Shown piece by piece: positions 36,348 through 42,444 of a DNA stretch of 64,000 nt; positions within the stretch are counted from its first letter, which is position 1, and each line of letters starts with the position of its first letter. Origin of the DNA: Chloroflexota bacterium (GTDB lineage: Bacteria; Chloroflexota; UBA6077; SHYK01); assembly GCA_035652535.1 (NCBI GenBank), contig DASRDP010000124.1, forward strand, positions 62,001-126,000, written 5' to 3'. The position numbers and the translations under genes are program-made. The notes below the pieces were generated by a model. The model had not been told where the DNA came from. It saw nothing but the letters and a program-made list of their open reading frames with translations, and made no database searches.

Positions 36348-37568
36348 GTGCTTTCACCGGAAGAGAATCAGGCACTCACGCTCGTCGGGCCGGGCACTCC
36401 GGCCGGGGATCTGTTGCGCCGATATTGGATGCCCATCGGTGCAGCCGCCGAATTGACGCCGGCTTCGCCCACGAAATTTGTCCGGGTCCTTGGCGAGGAT
36501 CTCGTGCTCTTTCGGGATGGACGCGGACGGGTCGGCCTGCTGGCGGACCATTGCGCGCACCGCGGCGCCTCGCTTCTCTATGGACGAGTCGAAGAGCGTG
36601 GAATTGCGTGCGCGTACCACGGCTGGCTCTATGACACGAGCGGAAACTGCCTCGAATGTCCGGCCGAGCCGGCGGGCAGCCGCTTCCACATGACGGTGAA
36701 GCAGACGGCCTATCCTGTGCAGGAGTTCTCGGGACTGCTCTGGGCATATCTCGGCCCTGCGCCGACCCCCGTGATCCCTCGCTACGACGTCTTCATGCGG
36801 AAGGATGGGCGGCGTCGAATCGTCGTGCAGCCGACCCTGGACTGCAACTGGTTTCAAACGATGGAGAACGCGGCGGATCCCGTGCACGCCGATGTGCTCC
36901 ACTACGAGCCACACCAGCAGCGTGGCGTCCGCATCACCAATTCGACACGCGGCAATGTGGACGATATCCAGTCATACACGTTCTATCGCGTGCCCTACGG
37001 ACTGATGAAGAAGCGCGTGCACCGGGACGGAACGGGCAATGAGCACCCGCTCATCTTCCCCAACGGGCTGCGGGTCGGGAACACCATCCAGATCCGCACA
37101 CCGGTCGACGACTCCCGAACGATGGTGTTTCGCGTGGTGTTCGAGCCGACGCCGGATGGAAGTCTGATCGAGGACGAGGGCGAGATCCCGGTCGAGTACA
37201 CGCTGCCGTACAAGGACCCGCCGTCTGCGCTGTATCCCTCCGCCCACTACTTCATGCGCATCATCGACGTGGCCGGCTACGGCTCAGGCGACTGGGTTCA
37301 GGCGCAGGACTACATGGCGTGGGAGACCCAGGGGCAAAATGCGGACCGCACGTCCGAGCGACTCGCGACCTCGGACCGCGGCATCGTCATGCTGCGCGAG
37401 ATGATGCGCGAACAGATCGAGCTGGTGCAGCAGGGGCGGGACCCACTGGGCATCGTGCGAGATCCGGATCACGCGATCATCGACACGAATCTCGACGGGG
37501 ACACCGTGCCCTTCATGCGCGCGGGGATCCCTGTGGGCGGCGTCTCCAGCTCCCGAAGCTCGCGCTAG
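36348..37568 (+). CDS. Rieske non-haem iron oxygenase, phthalate 4,5-dioxygenase-like (Rieske A)
   Basis: The 406-residue oxygenase alpha subunit has Rieske ligands C69-x-H71 (DHCAHRG) and C88-x2-H91 (CAYHGW), then the mononuclear iron site D177-x2-H180-x4-H185 (ENAADPVHADVLH). A late region, QAQDYMAWETQGQ, is typical of phthalate-dioxygenase-type enzymes. It hydroxylates or dihydroxylates an aromatic or cleaves an O-methyl group, needing a separate reductase not seen here. GTG start with GGAGGAAGG. It is followed 71 bases later by a LigB-type ring-cleavage gene, implying aromatic breakdown. A close paralogue is at 39464. Confidence 0.85.
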   Translation: MLSPEENQALTLVGPGTPAGDLLRRYWMPIGAAAELTPASPTKFVRVLGEDLVLFRDGRGRVGLLADHCAHRGASLLYGRVEERGIACAYHGWLYDTSGNCLECPAEPAGSRFHMTVKQTAYPVQEFSGLLWAYLGPAPTPVIPRYDVFMRKDGRRRIVVQPTLDCNWFQTMENAADPVHADVLHYEPHQQRGVRITNSTRGNVDDIQSYTFYRVPYGLMKKRVHRDGTGNEHPLIFPNGLRVGNTIQIRTPVDDSRTMVFRVVFEPTPDGSLIEDEGEIPVEYTLPYKDPPSALYPSAHYFMRIIDVAGYGSGDWVQAQDYMAWETQGQNADRTSERLATSDRGIVMLREMMREQIELVQQGRDPLGIVRDPDHAIIDTNLDGDTVPFMRAGIPVGGVSSSRSSR

Positions 37569-37639: not shown

Positions 37640-38590
37640 ATGGCAACGGTCGTGTTGGGGGTCGGCAGCTCTCATGGTCCCACGATGCACACCGAGCCGG
37701 ACCATTGGTTGCGGCTTGGTGTCGAAGACCGGCAAGACCCGCGCTTCGATTTCACAGCGCTAAAGCCGGGCCCGGCCATCGAGAACGAGCTTGCGCCCGA
37801 GCGACTGCAGGAGCGATACGATCGATGCCAGCGTGCCATCGGCTTGGTTTCCCAGGCGCTGCGCGACGCGGCGCCTGACACGGTGATCGTGCTCAGCAAT
37901 CCGCACGGCGGCGTCGACCAGGACCGCATGCAGCCAACGTTCGGGATCTATCTGGACGATCCCCCGCCCGTCACCACGCGCTATCCGCGCCAGCGGGCTC
38001 TCACCGTTAGCGATCCCGCCGAGCGCCGAGAAGGGCCGCCCTATCCGACCGATGGCTCCCTCGCCCGGCACCTGATGCAATACCTGGTCGATGACGGCTT
38101 CGACCTCGCGTGCGCGTTTCAGTCGCGCCCGGGCGCGAACCTCGATGAGGCGTTCACGCTGCTCCAGCGCATCTATGACCCGGCGGCGTCGGTGGCCTAC
38201 GTGCCGTTCGCTATCAGTCGGTACTTGCCGAACCAGGCGACCCCGCGACGCTGTTATCAGCTCGGGAATGCCCTCCGGCGCGCTGTCGAAGCCTGGGATG
38301 TTGACCGTCGTGTGGTCATCATGGCGTCGGGCGGCCTCAGCCACCAGATCATCGATGAGGCGCTGGACCGCAGCGTCATCGACGCGCTCGTCAGCTCAGA
38401 CTCTGAGGCACTGTGCTCGGTGTCTCGCGAGCGCCTCAATGGCGCCCCAGGGACGCCCGAGATCCTGAATTGGATCGCCTGCGCAGGTTCCATGGAGCCC
38501 AGGGCGATGACACTCGTCGACTACATCCCCTGTTACCGTTCCGCGGTAGGCACCGGACAGGGGGTAACGTTCGGCATCTGGCGTCCGTAG
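37640..38590 (+). CDS. Class III extradiol ring-cleavage dioxygenase (LigB superfamily)
   Basis: The 316-residue protein has the LigB-fold iron and catalytic residues: His12 (SSHGP), His89 (SNPHGG), the base His235 in SGGLSHQ and Glu275 in TPEILNW. It would open a catechol-type ring (protocatechuate 4,5-type or related) with Fe(II) and oxygen. The alpha subunit LigA is not seen, so it may act as a single-chain member of the family. Its position between two Rieske oxygenases and a class II aldolase fits the sequence hydroxylate, cleave, then aldol split. Confidence 0.8.
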   Translation: MATVVLGVGSSHGPTMHTEPDHWLRLGVEDRQDPRFDFTALKPGPAIENELAPERLQERYDRCQRAIGLVSQALRDAAPDTVIVLSNPHGGVDQDRMQPTFGIYLDDPPPVTTRYPRQRALTVSDPAERREGPPYPTDGSLARHLMQYLVDDGFDLACAFQSRPGANLDEAFTLLQRIYDPAASVAYVPFAISRYLPNQATPRRCYQLGNALRRAVEAWDVDRRVVIMASGGLSHQIIDEALDRSVIDALVSSDSEALCSVSRERLNGAPGTPEILNWIACAGSMEPRAMTLVDYIPCYRSAVGTGQGVTFGIWRP

Positions 38591-38604
38591 ACACGAAAAA
38601 CGGA

Positions 38605-39420
38605 ATGGGGGGTATGGACATGCAGGCGAAGGGCGCGGTTGAGACGGTCGAGAGCCTGAAAGAGAAGGTGGCGCTCTCGTGCCGAATCCTGGCGCAGCAT
38701 GGGCTCGTCAAGGGATCGACGGGGCACGTGAGCACGCGGCATCCGGAGTCGGCCAACGTGCTCGTGCGCGGGCGACCTGCTGCGGACCGGGGTCTTCGGT
38801 ATGCCGAGCCCGCCAGCATCATCGAGGTGGATCTCGACGGAAAGGTCGTCGGGGACGCCAAGGGCGTACGCCGCGTGAACGAGATCTATCTCCACACCGA
38901 AGTGTATCGGCGGCGCCCCGACGTCAACGCCGTCGTCCACGCCCACCCGCCGGGAGTTCTGCTGTGCACGATGACGGGGGTGACCCTCCGGCCGATCTTT
39001 GGGGGCTATGAGCCGCCGGGGATGCGCATGGCATATAAGGGACTTCCGCTCTAGGAGCGGTCCATCACGCTGCATACTCTCGATGAGACGAACCCTATGC
39101 TCGAGTGCATGGGGGAGAAAGACGTCTGCCTCATGCGGGCCCACGGCATCCTCGTCGTGGGCAAGACGGTCGAGGAGGCGACCCACAAGTCCATCGTCTT
39201 GGAGAACCTGGCGCGGCTGAATTACCTCGCTGCCCTCAAGGGCGACGCGCCCGAGATCTCCGACGAGGACAAAGCCGAGTTCGATCGTCGCGAGCGTGTG
39301 GCGGCGGCGAGCGGCCAAAGCGACGGTGAGCGCGGCTTCGGCTGGGACTACTACGTAAGTCTGGTCAATGAGCCCGGGCTCATTCAGTTCAACGAGCTGG
39401 GATTCGCCTTCGGCCATTGA
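38605..39420 (+). pseudogene. Class II aldolase/adducin-family gene interrupted by an in-frame TAG
   Basis: The reading frame encodes an intact family 2 aldolase except for TAG at 39052-39054. The first 149 residues hold E93 (NEIYLH) and zinc ligands H112-x-H114 (VVHAHPP). After the TAG the same frame continues ERSITLHTLDE and includes the third zinc ligand in MRAHGILVVG, ending in a normal stop. The flanks (GLPL-stop-ERSI) fit an ancestral Tyr at the codon (TAC/TAT to TAG). Without read-through the product loses the third ligand. Start may be 38605, 38614 or 38620. It would cleave an aldol from ring-fission products. Sequencing error is the simplest alternative. Confidence 0.8.
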
Positions 39421-39463
39421 TCGACCCAAATAACGGGTGCGATGCGATCGCGAAGGAGGTCGC

Positions 39464-40624
39464 GTGCTCACACACGAAGAGAATGCAGTCCTCACACGCG
39501 TTGGCCCCGGCACGCCCGGTGGGGAGCTGCTGCGGCGGTACTGGTTCCCCTTCTGCGTCGCGGCCGAGCTGACGCCCGACAATCCGACGAAGTTCGTCCG
39601 CCTGCTGGGAGAGGATCTCGTCGCGTTTCGGGACAAGTCGGGCAACGTGGGCCTGATTCAGGACCACTGCGCCCACCGCGGGGCGTCCATGCTCTACGGC
39701 CGCGTGGAAGAGCGCGGGATCTCCTGCGCCTACCACGGCTGGCTCTATGACACGGCCGGGAACTGCCTGGAAACGCCCGCCGAGCCGGCGGAGAGCAGGT
39801 TCCACCTTACGGTGAAGATGAAGGCGTATCCGGTGAGGCGGTTTGTCGGGCTGTACTGGGCCTATCTCGGCCCGCAGCCCGCGCCAGAGATTCCCAAGTA
39901 CGATATCTGGGCACGCAAGGACGGCAGACGGCACCTCGCGGTCCAGCCGATGCTGGCGGCCAACTGGTTTCAGCCCACCGAGAACGCCGTGGACATTGCC
40001 CATGGGTTCATCCTGCACCAGGAGTTCATCGCGCGCGGCAAGCCCGTCGCCAATACGACGCGGGGCTTGCAGGACGAAGTGGTGGAGGAGAAGTGGTGGC
40101 GCGTGCCCTATGGCATCATGAAGCGCCGTCTTCGGACGAACGGCGACGTGGACGAGCATCCCTACATCTTTCCCAACATCCTGCGCGTCTTCACCGAGAC
40201 GCAGATCCGGGTCCCGGTCGACGATACCCACACCCAGATCTTTCGGGTCGGATTTGAGCCAACACCCGATGGAAGCGTTATCGAGGATGAAGATGAGTCG
40301 TCGGTGAAGTATGTTGCGCCATATAAGAGCCCACCCGACGGCATTCATCCGGAGGCGAGGTTCGACACGCGTATCGAAGTCCAGGCGCAGGACCACATGG
40401 CGTGGGAGACCCAGGGACAGATCGCAGACCGCACGGCGGAACGGCTGGCGACGAGCGATCGCGGGATCGTGATGCTGCGGGAGATGATGTTCGAGAACAT
40501 CGCGAGAGTACAGCAAGGGCTCGACCCACTGAACGTGATTCGAGACCCGAACCACGCCGTGATCGACACGAACGTGGACAACGAGTTTCGGCGGCCCGAG
40601 CGTCGGGCGCGCGCGCTGGCCTAG
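39464..40624 (+). CDS. Rieske non-haem iron oxygenase, phthalate 4,5-dioxygenase-like (Rieske B)
   Basis: The 386-residue paralogue of Rieske A keeps the same register: C69/H71 (DHCAHRG), C88/H91 (CAYHGW) and D177, H180, H185 (ENAVDIAHGFILH). The C-terminal region around QDHMAWETQGQ is shorter by a ~15-residue loop. The start is GTG 39464, set by AAGGAGGT (39453-39460). It follows the interrupted aldolase by 44 bases and precedes the SBP-B gene by 54. The gene is in the same island but may act on a different substrate. Confidence 0.85.
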   Translation: MLTHEENAVLTRVGPGTPGGELLRRYWFPFCVAAELTPDNPTKFVRLLGEDLVAFRDKSGNVGLIQDHCAHRGASMLYGRVEERGISCAYHGWLYDTAGNCLETPAEPAESRFHLTVKMKAYPVRRFVGLYWAYLGPQPAPEIPKYDIWARKDGRRHLAVQPMLAANWFQPTENAVDIAHGFILHQEFIARGKPVANTTRGLQDEVVEEKWWRVPYGIMKRRLRTNGDVDEHPYIFPNILRVFTETQIRVPVDDTHTQIFRVGFEPTPDGSVIEDEDESSVKYVAPYKSPPDGIHPEARFDTRIEVQAQDHMAWETQGQIADRTAERLATSDRGIVMLREMMFENIARVQQGLDPLNVIRDPNHAVIDTNVDNEFRRPERRARALA

Positions 40625-40677
40625 CTCGTGAGCCACCTGGCTATCTGCTCCCCAACGGCGTGGGTGGCAGAACGGTC

Positions 40678-42444
40678 ATGCTGATCGTAGCGAAGCATCG
40701 CCGTCGAGCGAGATCCTTCGCACAGTGCCCCAGCCAGATCGTGCGCGTCCTCACGGGGGCTGTAATGCTCACCCTCGTCGTGGCGTGCACGTCCCAGAGC
40801 TCGTCCTCTTATTCGTCACGTCCAAACGCGGAGGGGCAATCGCCCGGAGCGCTAAAGCGAGTCGTCGCCGCCGTGCAAAGCAACCCGCCCACGCTGAATT
40901 CACGGGTGGGCTCGACCGTTGGTGGGTCGCAACCGGGCGTCGACGCCATCGAGGAGCTGCTGAACGTGGGGATGTCCACGCCGGACGCCCACGGAGTGCT
41001 CCAGGCGCGGCTGGCGGAGGAGGTCCCAACGGTCGAGAACGGCCACTGGATCGTCACGTCCGACGGGCGGATGGAGACGACGTGGACGATCCGGCCAAAC
41101 GCCCAGTGGCACGACGGCGTACCGGTTACGGCGGACGATATGGTTTTCACCGTCCAGGTCGGACAGGATCGCGAGATACCCGTCTTTCGCGACCCGACGT
41201 ACGACATCGTGGAGTCCGTCGATGCGCTGGATGCCCGCACGGTACGCGTACGCTGGTCCGGACCGTACATTCGCGCCGACTCGATGTTCTCGCGGGCCAT
41301 CGCGCTGCCGCTCCCGAAGCACATCCTGGCGGACCCGTATACCTACGACCGGGCCGGGTTTCTCGACCTCTCGTACTGGAGCGGCGAGTTCATCGGTACC
41401 GGGGCGTTTCGGGTCAAGGAGTTCGAGCGCGGCGCCTCCCTTACGGTGAGCGCTAACGATGCCTACGTCCTCGGGCGGCCAAAGATCGACGAGATTGAGA
41501 TTCGATTCATCCCCGATAACGCGGCGGTCGTCGCGAACCTGCTCGCGGATTCCGTCGAAGTGACGCTCGGGCGGAGTCTGTCCCTCGAGCAGGGCGTCAA
41601 CCTCCGCGATCAATGGCGCGATGGCACCGTCGACATCGCGTCACAAAGCTGGATGGCGCTGTACCCACAGCTTCTTACGCCACATCCCGCGATCATCGGC
41701 GAGGCTGCGTTTCGTCGCGCTTTGCTCGATGGGATCGACCGACAGGAGATGGCGGATACGCTCGAATTCGGGATGGTCCCCGTAGCGCACGTGTACGTCA
41801 GCCCCCAGGACGCTGAATTCAACGAGATACTGCCCAGCGTCGTGAAGTATGAATACGATCCGCGATCCGCAAAGCAGCGGCTGTCACAGCTGGGGTTCGA
41901 GACTGGGGCCGATGGCAGTTATCGGGATGCGGCCGGAACCGCTCTGGGTGTCCAGATCCAGGTCACGTCGAGCCTCGAGGCCCAGGTTAAGTCGGCGTTC
42001 TCCGTGGCGGACTACTGGCAGAAGCTGGGGATCGGCGTCGGTGTCGACGTCGTCCCTCCGCAGCGCGCGACGGACGCGGAGTACCGCGCCACATTCTCCG
42101 GCTTCGCTCTCGTACGCCAGCCCAACGACGTCGATGCCATCACGCGCGCCCACAGCCGCACGACGCCCCTTCCCGAGAACAACTTCACCGGTCTCAACCG
42201 CACGCGATACCGGAATCCCGAGTTCGACGCACAGATCGACAGCTACACCACGACGATTCCGTTCGCGGATCGGATGCGCGTGCTCGGCCAGATCGTTCAT
42301 TTCATGACCGACCAGGTCCTGTGGATGGGGCTGTTTTATGAGACCGAGCCGACGGCGATTGCCAAGCGGCTCAAGAACGTCACGGCGCGAAGTCAGAAAT
42401 CCGTCCAGACCTGGAACGCCCACGATTGGGACGTATCGAGCTAA
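40678..42444 (+). CDS. ABC transporter solute-binding lipoprotein, family 5 (SBP-B)
   Basis: The 588-residue protein has an N-terminal signal with lipobox-like LTLVVAC, so it is likely lipid-anchored, and the family 5 segments TWTIRPNAQWHDGVPVTADDMVFT, GTGAFRVKEF, LPKHILAD and FRRALLDGIDRQEM. It is closely similar to SBP-A at 34458. It follows Rieske B after 53 bases and precedes the RidA gene by 23, so it may be expressed with them. No transporter membrane subunits are seen. ATG 40678 is the first start giving a proper signal. Confidence 0.85.
   Translation: MLIVAKHRRRARSFAQCPSQIVRVLTGAVMLTLVVACTSQSSSSYSSRPNAEGQSPGALKRVVAAVQSNPPTLNSRVGSTVGGSQPGVDAIEELLNVGMSTPDAHGVLQARLAEEVPTVENGHWIVTSDGRMETTWTIRPNAQWHDGVPVTADDMVFTVQVGQDREIPVFRDPTYDIVESVDALDARTVRVRWSGPYIRADSMFSRAIALPLPKHILADPYTYDRAGFLDLSYWSGEFIGTGAFRVKEFERGASLTVSANDAYVLGRPKIDEIEIRFIPDNAAVVANLLADSVEVTLGRSLSLEQGVNLRDQWRDGTVDIASQSWMALYPQLLTPHPAIIGEAAFRRALLDGIDRQEMADTLEFGMVPVAHVYVSPQDAEFNEILPSVVKYEYDPRSAKQRLSQLGFETGADGSYRDAAGTALGVQIQVTSSLEAQVKSAFSVADYWQKLGIGVGVDVVPPQRATDAEYRATFSGFALVRQPNDVDAITRAHSRTTPLPENNFTGLNRTRYRNPEFDAQIDSYTTTIPFADRMRVLGQIVHFMTDQVLWMGLFYETEPTAIAKRLKNVTARSQKSVQTWNAHDWDVSS

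Follow-up and report, generated by a model that had tools for sequence, protein, structure and literature searches.

Decarboxylases are known among enzymes with a class II aldolase fold. PMC6362003 mentions dhbB, a class II aldolase of a meta-cleavage pathway that decarboxylates a ring-cleavage product, and two further points of reference are the 3,4-dihydroxyphthalate decarboxylase PhtC (NCBIfam model NF053537) and the solved 3-hydroxy-2-methylpyridine-4,5-dicarboxylate decarboxylase (PDB 2z7b). As to genes broken by a stop codon, PMC7918605 describes in-frame stops as widespread in bacterial genes, with dN/dS <1. Here we analysed a locus that touches on both subjects: a class II aldolase-family gene that lies among genes for Rieske and LigB-type oxygenases and whose frame is broken by one in-frame TAG. 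It is present on a 64,000-nucleotide stretch of a Chloroflexota genome, referred to below as the window. The features of the locus are as follows.

36348-37568, plus strand: Rieske oxygenase with a LigXa-type C-terminal domain (upstream neighbour)
37640-38590, plus strand: LigB-type (class III) extradiol ring-opening dioxygenase, directly upstream of the aldolase gene
38605-39051, plus strand: head of the class II aldolase-family gene (149 codons; E93, H112, H114)
39052-39054, plus strand: in-frame TAG at codon 150 (no stop in any of 17 homologs, 12 of which have Tyr or Phe)
39055-39420, plus strand: tail of the interrupted aldolase gene (121 codons and TGA; H180)
39464-40624, plus strand: second Rieske oxygenase, directly downstream (GTG start, picked by eye)
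40540-42444, plus strand: extracellular solute-binding protein, family 5 (SBP_bac_5; start chosen by us)

A single aldolase domain on both sides of the TAG

The region 38605-39420 (plus strand) comprises 272 codons, and the TAG at 39052-39054 is its sole internal stop; the terminal stop is the TGA at 39418-39420. The start of the gene is uncertain, the candidates being the ATGs at 38605, 38614 and 38620. Both halves matched PF00596 consecutively (profile positions 2-109 and then 139-182, of 183), with 74.8 and 37.6 bits when scored separately. When the stop was replaced by X, the full frame gave a single continuous PF00596 match of 116.3 bits (curated cut-off 22.2) spanning residues 21-206. 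The halves also matched NF053537 consecutively, at positions 2-132 and then 136-211, of 232. The continuous PF00596 match and the consecutive order of the profile parts show that the TAG splits one domain, and the presence of two neighbouring genes in the same frame was ruled out because a single PF00596 domain spans the stop. The opposite strand contains a 370-residue open frame (38533-39645, minus strand) that spans the entire aldolase gene, and which we take as the antisense shadow of a GC-rich gene.

The first-pass annotation, made from the DNA letters, had stated that the zinc ligands and E93 are kept on either side of the TAG and had suggested that codon 150 was formerly a Tyr codon. Both points were supported. 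An alignment of ten rows, namely the frame with the TAG read as Tyr and nine homologs, shows no variation at E93, H112, H114 or H180; we take the three histidines to be the metal ligands, and E93 the acid/base residue, of the class II aldolase family. The position of codon 150 was inspected in 17 homologs (16 aligned by tblastn, plus L091) and corresponds to Tyr in nine, Phe in three and another residue or a gap in five; none has a stop there. Among the 11 closest of them (at least 34% identity in these alignments) it is Tyr in nine and Phe in the remaining two. The closest homolog (L011, from genome G004 of the same family) shares 61% identity over residues 15-244, and 54.5% over residues 15-267; its frame is open throughout and has Tyr at the position of codon 150. 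As in a nonsense pseudogene, the stop thus lies inside a conserved domain and homologs elsewhere are intact.

Close relatives of the interrupted gene appear to be scarce. No second genome of the source genus was found among the five genomes of the family that were searched. Counting the source genome each time, homologs were found in three of these five at E <=1e-40, in two of 16 genomes of the order at E 1e-60, and in three of 400 genomes of the phylum at E 1e-58, the last being a draw from a larger group with at most six candidates scored per genome. A scan of genome contigs gave three homologs at about 40% identity.

The preferred reading and the age of the change

We favour the view that the TAG is a real and recent single-base nonsense lesion in a class II aldolase homolog, and give it a probability of about 0.6. 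A single-base nonsense change would have struck a position that is usually Tyr in the gene of a probable aldolase-fold decarboxylase. Translation would then halt after 149 residues, so that the product lacks H180 and its fold is cut short at the C-terminal side. In a structure model of the read-through protein, strands 174-177 and 181-186 and helix 189-212 all come from the tail, and loss of H180, the two strands and the helix suggests that the truncated head would be inactive. Since the remaining frame looks intact and coding, the nonsense change would be recent or even still polymorphic in the population.

Loss of the gene may be tolerable because the source genome contains 12 class II aldolase homologs, the interrupted one included (the 11 others at E <=0.001). 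One of these is part of a cluster on contig C93 (18874-23643, minus strand; L074, L075, L002) carrying genes for LigB, RidA, Rieske, aldolase and Rieske proteins in this order. Compared with the cluster in the window, the Rieske proteins are 58-66% identical and the others about 40%. The aldolase homolog of the C93 cluster is intact, and the genome thus has a related, intact set. Nor need translation of the Rieske gene downstream of the interrupted gene rely on the latter, because it has its own start at GTG 39464, with AAGGAGG just 5' of it; the list of open reading frames places this start at 39437.

Both halves of the frame retain a coding composition. GC3 is 0.819 in the head and 0.843 in the tail, and the codon score per codon is 0.241 and 0.331, respectively; the 173 coding-scored ORFs sampled from the genome average 0.216. 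Relative rates were compared with five outgroups taken singly, leaving out L017 (a near copy of L015), the more distant homologs and L091. The frame was the changed partner at 10-12 columns of the head and 9-12 of the tail, and L011 at 10-16 and 11-16, respectively; the frame was slightly ahead of L011 in two of the ten comparisons (11 versus 10, and 12 versus 11). At columns where at least seven of eight outgroups agree, the frame agrees with them at 27 of 38 in the head and 15 of 22 in the tail, and L011 at 27 and 16. These counts give no clear sign of a speed-up or relaxation in either half relative to L011, in what is a weak test of low power with a distant partner. Identity to L011 is 89/145 in the head and 55/120 in the tail. 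The lower likeness of the tail could reflect relaxed constraint, though L011 itself changed about equally there.

The first-pass annotation had concluded from the undamaged remainder of the frame that any loss must be very recent. The frame does lack a further stop, but that conclusion is too strong: about 2.5% of single substitutions in the interrupted frame would create a stop, so that the lack of a second one limits the age only loosely and, by our estimate, is compatible with the order of 100 substitutions. Two points count against a lesion. The genome is a draft assembly of 168 contigs (98.3% complete, 4.56% contamination), and many bacterial in-frame stops are argued in PMC7918605 to remain under purifying selection.

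Alternative explanations for the TAG

The TAG could instead be an error in sequencing, assembly or strain consensus, with the gene of the organism intact. We consider this unlikely, though deserving of real weight. It would agree with the draft state of the genome, in 168 contigs, and with a frame that is free of other lesions and shows no clear relaxation of constraint. The sequence around the stop is also of a suggestive kind.

39046-39060, plus strand: perfect inverted repeat with 6-base arms, the TAG forming its 3-base loop

According to PMC3622629, earlier work tied inverted repeats to Illumina miscalls, and the repeat around the TAG is a context of this type. The same paper, however, describes short known contexts as no reliable predictor of error-prone positions, which counts against an error. 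Perfect 6-3-6 inverted repeats were found at 315 of the 563,610 positions examined, and the placing of the TAG in the loop of one, noticed post hoc, is probably due to chance. Moreover, an error in the consensus normally requires low coverage.

The frequency of comparable stops in the genome also argues against an error. A scan of 564,000 bases, or about one eighth of the 4.45 Mb, took in the window plus 25 further 20-kb stretches and looked for same-frame stops flanked on either side by sequence that resembles coding DNA. It flagged 21 stops, with 39052 among them. Five of the 20 others were scanned with Pfam on both flanks: no family was common to both flanks in any of the five, and the downstream flank of two lacked any Pfam match. 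The other 15 were assigned by eye to the ends of genes, to adjacent genes or to antisense shadow frames. Thus, 39052 appears to be the only one of the 21 that splits a single domain, 15 of the other assignments being by-eye calls. With one apparently domain-internal stop among the 21, errors of this kind would be uncommon in this genome.

The frame and the metal-site residues retained on both sides of the TAG would also agree with a leaky stop, read at a low rate by a near-cognate tRNA, so that a little full-length enzyme keeps the frame under selection. Read-through is proposed in PMC7918605 to be frequent in bacteria, and a true case here would add one more to the tolerated in-frame stops treated there. 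This explanation is nevertheless improbable. The stop is not conserved, being absent from all 17 homologs, and RNA structure as a read-through signal was rejected: folding around the TAG was not significant (z -1.04), and 33 of 200 shuffled sequences folded equally well. In addition, PMC7918605 finds in-frame stops to be short-lived, lasting about as long as polymorphisms within a population, and anticipates that many of them are artefacts.

Another explanation would be that the stop doubles as a restart signal and that head and tail are made from one message as two chains that assemble into a putative split enzyme. The TAG and the GAG that follows it create AGGAG (39053-39057) six bases 5' of an in-frame ATC (39064), and an in-frame ATG is located at 39097. 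ATC is, however, very rare as a start, and the AGGAG-N6-ATC arrangement is present five times in the window, where 1.9 are expected, which makes a split enzyme very hard to accept.

The use of TAG elsewhere in the genome was determined for the same 564,000 bases, in which 393 long non-overlapping ORFs were reduced to 173 with a coding score >0.15. These end in TGA (90), TAG (57) or TAA (26), so TAG is an ordinary stop in this genome. A gene for RF1 is present and scores over the cut-off (505.5 bits). None of the 47 tRNA genes found in the genome, all typed with ARAGORN, has a CTA anticodon, and no PylS over the cut-off was found in the genome, its top match reaching 28.9 bits against 178.15. 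Decoding of TAG in this genome by a suppressor tRNA or as pyrrolysine, for which nothing but the open frame beyond the stop speaks, is therefore rejected on the results for tRNA, PylS, RF1 and stop usage as next to impossible, a decoding gene missed in a genome that is 98.3% complete being conceivable but unlikely.

Recent loss, read-through and sequencing error had all been named as options in the first-pass annotation, which also proposed looking for a suppressor tRNA and for other in-frame TAGs. Both loss and error stand. The evidence speaks against recoding or suppression of the TAG: the tRNA genes found include none with a CTA anticodon, and none of the 20 other candidates in the 564 kb was recognised as a domain-internal TAG. 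No sign of an altered genetic code was found. In this genome, an isolated in-frame TAG should be taken to mark a probable nonsense lesion or an error rather than to point to recoding. Interruption of a gene by a recent one-letter loss or by a sequence error is ordinary, and matters little outside annotation.

Probable function and comparison with known systems

The top NCBIfam model for the frame is that of PhtC, NF053537, matched continuously over residues 20-225. The score with an X at the stop was 194.7 bits, and the curated cut-off of 200 was not reached; L011 scored 168.4 bits and the neighbour homolog L016 200.9. The read-through structure model has a mean pLDDT of 81.8 and a pTM of 0.81. 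We infer from the family matches and the gene neighbourhood that the interrupted gene probably encoded a putative aromatic-acid decarboxylase acting together with the Rieske and LigB enzymes encoded beside it. Many further Rieske/LigXa-type oxygenases and family 5 solute-binding proteins were seen in the genome as tblastn hits within the sampled stretches (L074, 3403-17792, and other loci), and their abundance suggests a broad use of aromatic compounds.

Of the known systems, PhtC resembles the product of the window gene in its class II aldolase fold and as the best NCBIfam model, and the window gene lies between LigB and Rieske genes; it differs in that the window gene scores just below the model's cut-off. 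Among solved structures, PDB 2z7b is both the best match by sequence (E 2.4e-14) and the best fold match of the read-through model (E 9.1e-15, TM 0.69/0.79), but it is only 24% identical to the window protein and acts on another substrate. The likeness to dhbB, as described in PMC6362003, is that of a class II aldolase serving as a decarboxylase. With respect to its interruption, the gene most resembles a bacterial pseudogene with a single stop, or a nonsense polymorphism: the stop stands alone, the frame is otherwise intact, and many homologs are present in the genome.
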